A DNA stretch of 64,000 bases from Notolepis coatsorum (Eukaryota > Chordata > Actinopteri > Aulopiformes > Paralepididae): assembly GCA_963971535.1 (NCBI GenBank), contig OZ020593.1:21415721-21479720 (forward strand), in the 5' to 3' direction. This document shows positions 9,263-18,910 of this stretch, in pieces; positions within the stretch are counted from its first letter, which is position 1; each line of letters opens with the position of its first letter. The notes under the pieces were generated by a model, which searched no databases, had not been told where the DNA came from, and saw only the letters and a list, made by a program, of their open reading frames with translations. Made by a program: the position numbers and the translations under genes.

Positions 9263-9370
9263 CCACAAAAGACATTTCCTCCGCCACTCCCATCCCAGGT
9301 GGCCAACTCCTTGGCCTTCTCCAGTTTGGTGATGCGGGCTGTGGATTTGGGGCCCATGATACCACCTCCC

Positions 9371-11190
9371 CAGATCTGGAAGACACGCAAAGTGGCAAGG
9401 TGTTTTAACATGAGTAACAGCACAACAGTTTTTCAATGAATTAGGGGGGCTGGGCGATTAGGCCAAGAAAGAATAACTAAATGTACTTTTATTACTAAAG
9501 GTAATACCAGCAGAAAGGCTATAATAGCCATGCATGCTATAAATCGGCTTTAGCTCAGAATTAAAAAGATCAACACAATAGTTTCAGGTCGAGAAATTCC
9601 AATCATTGCAAAAGCCAGATTTTGATACAGGAGTGACATGCATTTACTGGGTGACGAGAGCAACGGAGAATATATGACCGGTAAGCATAAAATATAAATA
9701 AAGTAGATATTAGATTTATTATTTCACAAACTGACGACTTATAATTTCTTGAATATTGACATGCAATGGGGACACTCACATGTCATTGTAGTTGGTCTTG
9801 ACGGCTTCTGGACAGATCTGGAAGACACGCAAAGTGGCAAGGTGTTTCAACATGAGTAACAGCACAACAGTTTTTCAATGAATTAGGGGGGCTGGGCGAT
9901 TCTTACCTTTAGGCCAAGAAAGAATAACTAAATTTACTTTTATTACTAAAGGTAATACCAGCAGAAAGGCTATAATAGCCATGCATGCTATAAATCGGCT
10001 TTAGCTCAGAATTAAAAAGATCAACACAATAGTTTCAGGTCGAGAAATTCCAATCATCATTGCAAAAGCCAGATTTTGATACAGGAGTGACATGCATTTA
10101 CTGGGTGACGAGAGCAACGGAGAATATATGACCGGTAAGCATAAAATATAAATAAAGTAGATATTAGATTTATTATTTCACAAACTGACGACTTATAATT
10201 TCTTGAATATTGACATGCAATGGGGACACTCACCTCACTCATATGTCATTGTAGTTGGTCTTGACGGCTTCTGGACAGATCTGGAAGACACGCAAAGAGG
10301 CAAGGTGTTTCAACATGAGTAACAGCACAACAGTTTTTCAATGAATTAGGGGGGCTGGGCGATTCTTACCTTTAGGCCAAGAAAGAATAACTAAATTTAC
10401 TTTTATTACTAAAGGTAATACCAGCAGAAAGGCTATAATAGCCATGCATGCTATAAATCGGCTTTAGCTCAGAATTAAAAAGATCAACACAATAGTTCAG
10501 GTCGAGAAATTCCAATCATCATTGCAAAAGCCAGATTTTGATACAGGAGTGACATGCATTTACTGGGTGACGAGAGCAACGGAGAATATATGACTGGTAA
10601 GCATAAAATATAAATAAAGTAGATATTAGATTTATTATTTCACAAACTGACGACTTAAATAATTTCTTGAATATTGACATGCAATGGAGACACTCACCTC
10701 ACTCATATGTCATTGTAGTTGGTCTTGACGGCTTCTGGACAGATCTGGAAGACACGCAAAGTGGCAAGGTGTTTCAACATGAGTAACAGCACAACAGTTG
10801 TTCAATGAATTAGGGGGGCTGGGCGATTACCTTTAGGCCAAGAAAGAATAACTAAATTTACTTTTATTACTAAAGGTAATACCAGCAGAAAGGCTATAAT
10901 AGCCATACATGCTATAAATCGGCTTTAGCTCAGAATTAAAAAGATCAACACAATAGTTTCAGGTCGAGAAATTCCAATCATTGCAAAAGCCAGATTTTGA
11001 TACAGGAGTGACATGAATTTACTGGGTGACGAGAGCAACGGAGAATATATGACTGGTAAGCATAAAATATAAATAAAGTAGATATTAGATTTATTATTTC
11101 ACAAACTGACGACTTATAATTTCTTGAATATTGACATGCAATGGGGACACTCACCTCACTCATATGTCATTGTAGTTGGTCTTGACGGCT
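9371..11190 (-). repeat. Four tandem units of about 460 bp from RPL7A exon 7/intron 7
   Basis: Units start with CAGATCTGGAAGACACGC at about 9371, 9813, 10276 and 10740, giving spacings of 442, 463 and 464 bp. Each runs from the exon-8 splice region through intron 7 to a fragment of exon 7 (ATGTCATTGTAGTTGGTC), then joins the next unit at GGCTTCTGGACAGATC. Each contains a decayed SNORD36-type sequence. Confidence 0.93.
9545..10985 (-). pseudogene. Four decayed SNORD36-type snoRNAs
   Basis: In each roughly 460-bp unit (near 9545-9625, 9985-10070, 10455-10535, 10905-10985) the match to the intron-7 snoRNA of intact RPL7A is damaged. The 18S guide is lost (GCTCGTATTATGA reduced), the 28S guide is changed from GTGAAGAAATTCAA to GTCGAGAAATTCCA, and in some units the C box is altered. 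Terminal stem sequences remain. They are unlikely to guide rRNA. Confidence 0.75.
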
Positions 11191-11490
11191 TCCACAAGCT
11201 TGGCAAGTGCACCTTTGTCCTCACTAGGAAAGAACAGTCAATCAGTATGACAGACATGGTCTTCAAAATCTTCACCCGAGCGTTAGTTAACTAAGTGGAA
11301 TAAATTCATACACAATAAACTACACTGAGGTGTGCAGCAGAGATGAGACCATATGGTTATACACAATAAGATGATATTTGTATAGTGATACTTTTTTTTA
11401 TGTGGGAATGGGTTTTGAACTATAGGATCATCCATTAGGCCTTTGCCAGCTAGACACCATTCTGTTCCAAGAGGAATTTGTGGACCGACA

Positions 11491-11572
11491 TTGATGCTCA
11501 GGGTTAAAAAGCTCAATAAAAACTTCATGTTGTTTCAGTTGAAGAAATTCAAAACATCATTGCATCATCAAG
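11491..11572 (-). ncRNA. SNORD36-type C/D snoRNA copy in the pseudogene
   Basis: The minus strand shows GATGC...GCATC pairing ends, C box (ATGATGT), 28S guide TTGAATTTCTTCAA before CTGA, and 18S guide GAGCTTTTTAACC before CTGA. It is a copy of the intron-6 snoRNA at 23324-23405. There is no obvious promoter upstream. Confidence 0.6.
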
Positions 11573-12833
11573 TTTAACTAAATAATAAGGCTCACTAAAT
11601 ATGAATAAGTGATCAATCACACTAGACAGCACTTTAGACCAGAAATTCCCAAACGTATCTTGCCACCAAGAACATCATAGCCCATTAAAGATGCTGCAAG
11701 CTGTATTTTTGTAACCCATGTTACTGACCAGACACTCTACATCAGTGATGGCTGTCGGAATGTTGAGCTATTATTTTAACGTGTTGACGACCAATTAAAA
11801 AAATGTATTAAATCAAAATGACTAGCACTTCACACCCAAGTTGTTTGAAATTGTCCCAATGCCAAACAAAGCCATGCGATCGTGCATGTCACATAAGTTA
11901 TCTTGTAATATCAACGACTGCTTGTAAAAATGCTATGAAATTCACCATCCGTCCGAGTAATTATACAGCCAACGCTAACGTCTAGGGTACTACTGCCAAT
12001 TATGCGGTGGATGAAGGATGCAGTTGTTTGATGCGGCGCAGAGTTTGATTCCGGTGTTCACACCGACTGACATGAAGCACAACAGAGCGGTGAACACTCA
12101 TGGAAATGTACTCAACGAGGCAGGTGTAAAAACACCCCATTTGTTGATCTTGGTGCCATGAAACTGCACCCTGGTCTCCAAGTTTCTCAGCATGCCTCAC
12201 CTGCACGGGCGATGGGTGGCCTCTTGGGTCGGGTGTCTCTTTCCAGCGGCCTTCTGCTCAGTGCGAGCCACCAGCCTCCGCTTCTTCTCCTGCTTGGTCT
12301 CCGGTCTGTACTTGTGGGCCAGATTGAACAGCTGTGTGGCTGGAGAGGGGAAACAAAGAAGTCACTATTAAAAAAGTGAGGGGGCAACACCAACGTCCAA
12401 CACAGACAAAACAAACAAACTGATCAAAAAAGCAAGCTCGGTGGTGGGAGCGGACCTGGACAGTCTGGAGGTGGTGGCAGAGGGGAGGACGAGGAGGAAG
12501 CTGTATGCTATCCTCGAGAACCCCTGCCACCCCCTCTATGATGAGCTGACCGCAATGCAGTCCACGTTTAGCCACAGACTCTCCTCCTCCTCCTGTATGT
12601 ATTAACTGTTTTTTTAAAGTGCCGTTATGCTGTAAAAGACATCTGAATCTCCCCTCTAGGATAAATAAAGGTTTTCAATAATATGATAATACTACTACAC
12701 ACTCAAGTTACAACTATTTGACGAGAAATGCCACTGAATCTTAGCTGCCAGAGATGTACTCCTCCTGCCGACTTGTTCACAATCTAAGTCGCTTTGGATA
12801 AAAGCATAAGCTAAATTACTAAATGTAAATTGC

Positions 12834-12905
12834 ATCAGCTCTTGGTGGAATGTCAGCATTGCCGTTAAGATAGCAAATATTATTTCACATCATCTGCAAA
12901 GCGGC
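12834..12905 (-). ncRNA. SNORD24-like copy (pseudogene intron 3)
   Basis: Minus strand: TTTGCAGATGATGT..., ATATTTGCTATC, CCACCAAGAGCTGATGC. The box D CTGA and C-box-like ATGATGT are kept. The 28S guide is changed in its last two bases compared with the intact-gene copy at 26459-26530. Confidence 0.55.
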
Positions 12906-18057: not shown

Positions 18058-18130
18058 TTGCATCAGTGATCTTGGGATGTCAGCATTGCTGTTAAGAATG
18101 TGGAGGGTACATATTTCACATCATCTGCAA
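18058..18130 (-). ncRNA. Diverged SNORD24-like copy (pseudogene intron 3)
   Basis: Keeps CAGATGATGTGAAATA at the 5' end and AAGATCACTGATGC at the 3' end, but the ATATTTGCTATC guide is replaced. Probably non-functional. Confidence 0.5.
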
Positions 18131-18506
18131 AGCGGCCAATGTATGCAAAGAAATCCTCAGCAAACCTTGTAATACTCTTTAAGCTCATCCTCTCCGTTCA
18201 ACTAATCCATATGATAGAAGATGACATTTCACTTATAAGCTCATCAAGACCTCATGTCACATCACCTCCAAACTATCCCCTGTAGCTCACCGGTCTGTCG
18301 GTCCAGGGCCTGGGTGAACTGGTTGATCGCAGGGGGAACCTTCAGACGCTTGTACAGGATGGAGCGCTGCCTCTGCAGGCGGATGTAACGAGGCCATTTC
18401 ACAAAGCAAGTCAGGTCACGCTTGGGCTGGACGTCCTGACCTGGAACACCAAAGTATTCAGCACATTGCATCGAAATAACACAAAAGACAGCTCTTTCAA
18501 CTTCCT

Positions 18507-18579
18507 GTGCGCATCAGCGATCTTGGTGGGTGTCTGCATAATTGTTAAGATAGCAAATATTCTTTACATCATCTGCACC
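18507..18579 (-). ncRNA. SNORD24 copy (pseudogene intron 2)
   Basis: Boxes and both 28S guides as in 26905-26976, with the same weakened closing stem as the 16793 copy. Confidence 0.68.
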
Positions 18580-18827
18580 ATGTTGTTGGAAGGGAGATGT
18601 GGACCAGTGTGTCGACTCTAGCTACTCACCAATGCCAAAGTTCTTTGGCCTCTTCTCGAACAGGGGGTTGACTACCTTCTTGGCCTCATGTTTCTTGGCG
18701 ACTGAAGGGGCAGGTGCCACCTTCTTCCCCTTAGCCTTCTTCCCCTTGGCTTAGGCTAAGAAAGAAGAAAAACAAATTAAAGGCAATACTAGCAGAGGCT
18801 ATAACATCCACACATGATGCTCAGAAT

Positions 18828-18910
18828 TGGCTTTAGCTCAGAATTAAAAAGCTCGTATTTGAATCATCAGGTGTCAGGTGAAGAAATTCAAATCATCATT
18901 GCAAAAGCCA
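18828..18910 (-). ncRNA. SNORD36-type copy (pseudogene intron 1)
   Basis: Stem, C and D boxes and both guides intact; one change near C' (ATCAGGTGTC instead of ATCAGATGTC on the plus strand). This is the outermost snoRNA before similarity to RPL7A intron 1 ends near 19110. Confidence 0.72.

Follow-up and report, generated by a model that had tools for sequence, protein, structure and literature searches.

GAS5 is a non-coding host gene of small nucleolar RNAs (snoRNAs), and hosts of this type carry intact C/D snoRNAs in introns between exons that do not code for protein. Duplicated pseudogenes of ribosomal-protein genes, as is generally known, retain introns, have a broken frame, and adjoin the parent gene. 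Both descriptions apply in part to a dead copy of the ribosomal-protein gene RPL7A that lies beside the live gene in Notolepis coatsorum and holds an array of SNORD36 and SNORD24 copies. The window, i.e., the whole stretch of 64,000 nucleotides that was analyzed, comprises positions 21415721 to 21479720 of contig OZ020593.1 in the 3.42-Gb genome; positions below are those of the window, and the genome searches cover the whole assembly. While the array resembles GAS5-type hosts in its introns with intact snoRNAs between non-coding exons, it is without a known promoter or first exon and is known here from sequence alone. From an ordinary duplicated pseudogene, the dead RPL7A differs by a fourfold internal amplification at each of two sites. 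That C/D snoRNAs duplicate in cis inside their hosts is well established according to the excerpted sources (PMC2653536; PMC8178906), one of which reports snoRNA multiplication by intragenic duplication in chicken and other vertebrates (PMC2653536). The snoRNAs described here were likewise multiplied by intragenic duplication, but inside a dead duplicate of the host, whereas the cis-duplicated intronic paralogs of that excerpt multiplied in a working host (PMC2653536). Promoterless, degenerating snoRNA copies, as excerpted from a third source, share with the array the lack of a host promoter and the degradation of some motifs and stems; what sets the present locus apart from them is that whole introns and exons were copied in tandem and that eight copies from introns 1 and 2 have full ribosomal RNA (rRNA) matches (PMC10234308). 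The excerpt of PMC5644071 holds nothing specific, and among the literature matches listed there was no published description of an amplified dead RPL7A copy with snoRNAs.

We consider it most likely that the array is a stillborn tandem duplicate, internally amplified and partly refreshed by the live gene, and not a selected snoRNA cluster. At this one locus, snoRNA copies whose order is known, some intact and some ruined, stand next to the live gene from which they came, a natural test of how long snoRNA persistence lasts in the absence of a host and of the extent to which gene conversion by a functional neighbor may resemble selection. In agreement with the original prediction, sequence comparison finds the copy dead, without the host promoter, and internally amplified. 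Self-BLAST of the window, in which matches of at least 120 base pairs (bp) were considered, delimits the copy (Table 1), which contains exons 2 to 4 in four blocks, one exon 6, pieces of exon 7, and a remnant of exon 8. Homology to an intron-bearing live gene is combined with the lesions of a duplicated pseudogene: exons 1 and 5 were not found, exon 4 has gaps, two exons are fused in block B2, and exon 6 contains a TAG. For exon 5, neither self-BLAST at the above length nor a search with the RPL7A protein gave any match other than the live exon. The live-gene segment 27484-28400 (917 bases with exon 1, the promoter, and what remains of intron 1) has no second copy in the window, its matches to the remainder being short chance matches with E-values of 2.1 or worse.

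The duplicated pieces keep their order and orientation, pairing 2700-2891 with 19204-19399, 6908-7726 with 20189-21019, 7774-8288 with 21805-22362, and the gene body up to 19107 with that up to 27483, where similarity ends within intron 1. Truncated fragments of the neighboring gene SURF1 lie between the dead and the live RPL7A, at 19204-19399 and at about 20389-20470 (the latter recognized by eye within the 20189-21019 match). These fragments are the reciprocal relic of the tandem duplication that also gave rise to the dead RPL7A. We infer the following order of events. In the simplest history, a single tandem duplication would have broken within SURF1 (near 2700) at one end and within RPL7A intron 1 (near 27483) at the other. 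The resulting row would consist of SURF1 in apparently complete form, RPL7A truncated at its 5' end, a second SURF1 that is truncated, and the intact RPL7A. A duplication of this extent would explain why the dead copy lacks exon 1 and promoter; the truncated RPL7A would thus have been stillborn, never having possessed either. The event was presumably not perfectly clean, since a short stretch of intron 1 sequence recurs at the junction in inverted orientation (19111-19163 versus 18980-18925, 87.7% over 57 columns).

The fourfold occurrence of the exon 2-3-4 block, already noted in the original prediction, was confirmed by self-BLAST and alignment. Each of the blocks B1 to B4 spans intron 1 to early intron 4, and the three blocks that keep the start of exon 4 have gaps of 11, 14, and 2 columns in this exon. 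In B2, the fusion of exons 3 and 4 adjoins a 28-bp tandem repeat (16588-16645). The joints B1/B2, B2/B3, and B3/B4 (at 17232, 15993, and 14031) have one common sequence leading from intron 6 to intron 1, and only one exon 6 was found in the dead copy, after B3. An identical joint occurring three times points to a single founding joint that was multiplied, as expected of unequal exchange, and such multiplication of the intron 6-intron 1 joint would have produced the four blocks. Intron 7 would have been multiplied fourfold separately from them. Tandem blocks are prone to errors in assembly, and the four could in principle be mis-joined reads of one gene; we regard such an artefact as extremely improbable, given that every block has its own substitutions and indels (e.g., the B2 fusion and an insertion in B4) and that 99 changes separate the blocks over 997 columns.

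At the Rfam gathering level, the array comprises 15 C/D snoRNA copies as opposed to seven in the live gene (22 in all): four SNORD36 from intron 1, four SNORD24 from intron 2, two from intron 3, one from intron 6, and four from intron 7. The nine SNORD36 copies (RF00049) score 41.3 to 74.1 bits, all above the 30-bit criterion, and the six SNORD24 copies (RF00069) score 56.7 to 65 bits, all above the 41-bit criterion. The eight copies named in the original prediction are real, being placed by Rfam within 5 bases of the predicted starts with E-values of 1.6e-8 or better; it omitted the seven at 12831, 15106, 11493, 10925, 10464, 10001, and 9550, the last four of which are damaged and belong to the second tandem array, likewise absent from that prediction. 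A genome search with the intron 1 SNORD36 found 11 places, all in the window, but missed three of the 14 SNORD36 copies there (24605, 24287, and 11493), so that diverged copies elsewhere are possible.

The excerpted description of the RPL7A snoRNAs assigns an 18S and a 28S target to U36 and two 28S targets to U24 (PMC2653536). As predicted, the guides have survived in introns 1 and 2, the rRNA match having the length of the live copy in all eight cases. All four SNORD36 copies of intron 1 have a 16-bp match to the 18S site, the 18S string being present in the same genome, and the intron 1 copies have a 14-bp match to the putative 28S site. All four SNORD24 copies of intron 2 have 11- and 13-bp guides to adjacent 28S sites, and this 28S string was found in the genome. 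Within the Rfam span, three of the four SNORD36 and two of the four SNORD24 show no difference from the live copy; the terminal stem of the SNORD24 in B1 and B2 is weaker (-7.5 versus -10.1 kcal/mol in the live gene). Since a strict box C pattern fits no SNORD24, the live ones included (ATGATGT), a kept box here means the letters of the live gene.

The remaining introns present a different picture. In intron 3, the snoRNA is lost altogether from B2 and reduced to a remnant in B1, and the copies in B3 and B4 have 28S guides of 9 and 12 bp. The four SNORD36 copies of intron 7 have rRNA matches of 8 to 10 bp versus 14 to 16 bp in the live copy, namely 10 bp to 18S and 8 bp to the putative 28S site as against 16 and 14; relative to the live copy, 12 to 15 snoRNA bases are deleted. 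The live snoRNAs of introns 4 and 5 have no separate counterpart in the dead copy. The single SNORD36 at 11493, which consists of intron 6 sequence, also resembles the intron 4 one and matches 18S over 13 bp and the putative 28S site over 13 bp.

Table 1. Features of the RPL7A locus, with positions in the window and scores of the snoRNA copies
Feature	Positions	Strand	Remarks
Dead RPL7A copy	9298..19107	-	Self-BLAST; same orientation as live gene
Live RPL7A	22467..27969	-	8 exons, intact 266-amino-acid frame, 266 codons
Block B1	17640..18975	-	Part of intron 1, exons 2-4, beginning of intron 4; 11 bases missing from exon 4
Block B2	16400..17232	-	Exon 3 fused to exon 4 through loss of intron 3
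Block B3	14760..15993	-	Nearest to live gene, 95.9% over 896 columns
Block B4	12170..14031	-	45 exon 2 columns missing; foreign sequence within intron 3
Exon 6 remnant	14245..14367	-	Between B3 and B4; TAG in matched frame (protein match)
Second array	9371..11192	-	463-bp unit in four copies, made of the end of exon 7 and of intron 7
SNORD36 intron 1, B1	18833..18904	-	Rfam 64.4 bits; one change, between D' and C' boxes
SNORD36 intron 1, B2	17103..17174	-	Rfam 65.3 bits; as live copy
SNORD36 intron 1, B3	15865..15936	-	Rfam 65.3 bits; as live copy
SNORD36 intron 1, B4	13899..13970	-	Rfam 65.3 bits; as live copy
SNORD24 intron 2, B1	18510..18577	-	Rfam 61.9 bits; 3' half of terminal stem changed
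SNORD24 intron 2, B2	16795..16862	-	Rfam 61.9 bits; stem change as in B1
SNORD24 intron 2, B3	15553..15620	-	Rfam 65 bits; as live copy
SNORD24 intron 2, B4	13639..13706	-	Rfam 65 bits; as live copy
SNORD24 remnant intron 3, B1	18055..18126	-	No Rfam gathering hit; guides 5 bp (destroyed) and 8 vs 11 bp
SNORD24 intron 3, B3	15106..15173	-	Rfam 56.7 bits; 2-bp deletion ahead of box D, guide there 9 vs 11 bp
SNORD24 intron 3, B4	12831..12898	-	Rfam 58.9 bits; 2-bp loss as in B3
SNORD36 intron 6, single	11493..11565	-	Rfam 74.1 bits; guides as live copy; stem -9.1 vs -15.4
SNORD36 intron 7, unit 1	10925..10986	-	Rfam 41.3 bits; box C broken, both guides shortened
SNORD36 intron 7, unit 2	10464..10527	-	Rfam 46.9 bits; both guides shortened
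SNORD36 intron 7, unit 3	10001..10065	-	Rfam 49 bits; both guides shortened
SNORD36 intron 7, unit 4	9550..9611	-	Rfam 41.3 bits; box C broken, both guides shortened
SURF1 exon/intron duplicate (of 2700-2891)	19204..19399	+	80.5% identity; marks duplication junction
3' flank of live RPL7A	20189..22362	.	20189-21019 and 21805-22362 duplicated at 6908-7726 and 7774-8288, beside dead copy

Most of the block introns have diverged less from the live gene than the outer flanks of the duplication have. Set against the live gene after gap filtering, the two outer flanks have diverged by 10.4% and 14.9%, upper intron 1 by 17.8%, and intron 7 by 9.1%, as compared with 1.7 to 3.3% for intron 2 of the four blocks, the snoRNA itself being counted in. 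The outer flanks (130/1059) differ significantly both from the intron 2 segments of B1 to B4 (16/710; p = 1e-15) and from introns 2 to 4 of B3 (29/638; p = 4e-8), all after gap filtering. Few sites separate blocks from live gene: six in all four, six in B1, B3, and B4, three in B1, B2, and B3, plus two three-way ones. Groupings also conflict, with B1 and B3 standing against P (the live gene), B2, and B4 at two sites and B1 and B4 against P, B2, and B3 at three. The low divergence of the block introns, the small number of block-versus-live sites, and the conflicting groupings suggest that most of the block region was probably homogenized by gene conversion after the duplication. A young duplication without conversion, in which low divergence of the snoRNAs and exon 3 merely reflects chance and short time, would accommodate the several segments that are 93 to 96% identical and the shortness of the snoRNA and exon 3 stretches; since flanks at 10 to 15% and upper intron 1 at 18% do not fit one age and rate with 2 to 3% in intron 2, we consider it very unlikely. 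Under homogenization, the intact snoRNAs of introns 1 and 2 would stem from recent copying together with gene conversion, both between blocks and with the live copy. Because the live snoRNAs and exons are under selection, copying from the live gene delivers intact snoRNAs without any selection on the array. The array itself would probably be silent, or touched at most by read-through from the live gene, and its snoRNA copies would be turning into snoRNA pseudogenes; conversion as the cause and the lack of function are what we infer from these patterns.

Divergence between the blocks served as a test of selection. It was counted in a five-sequence alignment of the live gene and B1 to B4 as the minimum number of changes among the four blocks at columns with at least three blocks, a gap filter dropping columns within four bases of a gap. 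Segments that were non-homologous or unreliable were masked by hand (live-gene positions 26190-26727 for B2, and 26548-26662 and 26246-26342 for B4). The tests take columns as independent, and several were made. Changes per columns amount to 1/72 for the intron 1 SNORD36, 1/68 for the intron 2 SNORD24, and 11/65 for the intron 3 SNORD24; to 13/117, 3/150, and 14/134 for exons 2, 3, and 4; and to 32/249 (gap-filtered, 18/219) for introns 1 and 2 outside the snoRNAs.

A number of these and related observations weigh against a refreshed, unselected array. The snoRNAs of introns 1 and 2 (2/140) vary less than the surrounding introns (p = 4.6e-5; filtered, 0.008), less than exons 2 and 4 (p = 4e-4), and less than exons 2 and 3 pooled (p = 0.024, one-sided). 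Their comparison with the nearest flanks (p = 0.001 raw, 0.04 filtered) also favors the original prediction. The 71 bases of intron 1 that follow SNORD36 carry nine changes, and as conversion should ignore snoRNA borders, so sharp a transition speaks against conversion. Block splice sites have kept GT/AG in 22 of 24 cases, both losses being in B2. In the intron 7 array, substitutions relative to the live gene are rarer in the snoRNA (three in each copy, in 62 to 65 aligned bases) than in the intron (27 to 31 of 317 to 327), in a comparison that includes the live copy, whose constraint alone would give a higher intron rate. Finally, the start of intron 4 in B4 differs from the live gene by a flank-like 13.2%, and a divergence of only 5.8% and 6.8% is seen in pieces of introns 6 and 4 that lie beyond the blocks.

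Against selection, exon 3 is as invariant as the snoRNAs (p = 1.0), with a change deficit of p = 8.6e-5 (filtered, 0.011; versus exons 2 and 4, p = 7e-4), and coding cannot account for its invariance because the exon is dead in the blocks. A 70-base scan places the segments with at most one change (139/928) over SNORD36, SNORD24, exon 3, and a few countable intron 3 columns. When intron 3 is included, the snoRNA-versus-intron test weakens (p = 0.008 raw, 0.058 gap-filtered), with the limitation that 8 of the 11 intron 3 snoRNA changes lie close together in B1 and perhaps arose in a single event. Selection on all snoRNAs was rejected on account of the damaged copies of introns 3 and 7. Coding selection on the block exons was considered as well; nonsynonymous differences from the live gene (B1, 7/15; B2, 4/14; B3, 8/16; B4, 11/18; neutral expectation, 0.71) decide nothing, as they mix the constrained live branch with sites common to the blocks. 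In sum, the divergence tests on the snoRNAs and exon 3 appear suggestive at most, and selection on the array snoRNAs is not established by them. Between recent amplification and selection, the two explanations offered in the original prediction, recency is the better-supported half, and selection finds no support in view of the exon 3 result and the guide losses in introns 3 and 7. Equal divergence of snoRNAs, exons, and introns, named there as the observation that would speak against selection, was found in part: exon 3 equals the snoRNAs, but these differ from introns 1 and 2 and from exons 2 and 4.

The same data bear on the reading that a snoRNA host gene is being born. The array would then be a read-through-fed RPL7A duplicate, or one transcribed from a new start near 19.4 kb, whose spliced exons act as spacers and in which the intron 1 SNORD36 and intron 2 SNORD24 are kept by selection for dosage while the other copies are let go. 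The full-length rRNA matches of the eight copies, the lower variation of these snoRNAs relative to introns 1 and 2 and exons 2 and 4, and the retained splice sites agree with it, as do the same-strand, upstream position of the live gene, whose coding sequence ends at 22467, 3.4 kb from the array, and a stretch rich in CpG dinucleotides at 19200-19500 (observed-to-expected ratio, 0.96). However, exon 3 is equally invariant, the snoRNAs of introns 3 and 7 are damaged, the window contains the live promoter and exon 1 only once, and the live gene still has its seven snoRNAs. CpG-rich segments are moreover not rare, the ratio being at least 0.9 in 12 of 106 400-base segments with a G+C fraction of at least 0.5, and 19440-19510 is part of a common interspersed repeat. 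Such an emerging non-coding host is therefore improbable in our judgment, and a read-through-fed array possible but unlikely; it is the same-strand live gene upstream and the 22 kept splice sites that leave it a small probability. If the array were expressed, it would show how non-coding snoRNA hosts can arise from ribosomal-protein genes.

A snoRNA host gene has its own promoter and first exon; in the window, the array has none derived from the RPL7A promoter, and an unrelated new promoter is possible. The stretch 19200-19500 contains two overlapping one-mismatch matches to an NRF1-like consensus, which has eight strand-matches at four places in the window where 0.20 are expected. The other places, 5438 and 29879, belong to sequence occurring more than once in the window. 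The genome search with 19440-19510 gave 475 first-look candidates, and 40 of the 40 that were scored match, one being the window itself; three copies of this repeat have about 90 to 100 bp in common, CpG-rich and with NRF1-like palindromes. Because the NRF1-like places are repeated and 19440-19510 is an interspersed repeat, a promoter of the array's own at 19.4 kb was rejected as specific evidence. An array driven by a long terminal repeat at 19204-19399, repeated at 2700-2891, was likewise ruled out, since 2783-2974 scores as SURF1 (Pfam SURF1, E = 1.8e-6).

The complete RPL7A lies on the minus strand between SURF1 and MED22, an arrangement that we take to be the vertebrate surfeit gene order. 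On the plus strand, SURF1 exons occupy roughly 1.8 to 7.2 kb; the gene was read in pieces, of which two of four score above the Pfam SURF1 cut-off, one just below (E = 3e-4), and one without a match, and its last exon was recognized by eye. Near 30 kb, the plus strand carries MED22 (Pfam Med22, E = 2.7e-17). The live RPL7A has GT/AG borders at each of its seven introns, and its protein matches L7a/eL8 over residues 1 to 266 (E = 2.9e-165). Searched against the genome, this protein gave 20 matches (26 candidates scored), 19 of them inside the window; the sole match outside, on contig C44, is weak (31% identity). By Rfam, each live intron contains one C/D snoRNA, which is SNORD24 for introns 2 and 3 and SNORD36 for introns 1, 4, 5, 6, and 7. 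Against these five SNORD36 and two SNORD24, the excerpted chicken table has two RPL7A introns with U36 and one with U24 (PMC2653536). Farther along the window, about 19 copies of a 30-bp unit occur at 60024-60609 on the plus strand within an open frame of 454 codons.

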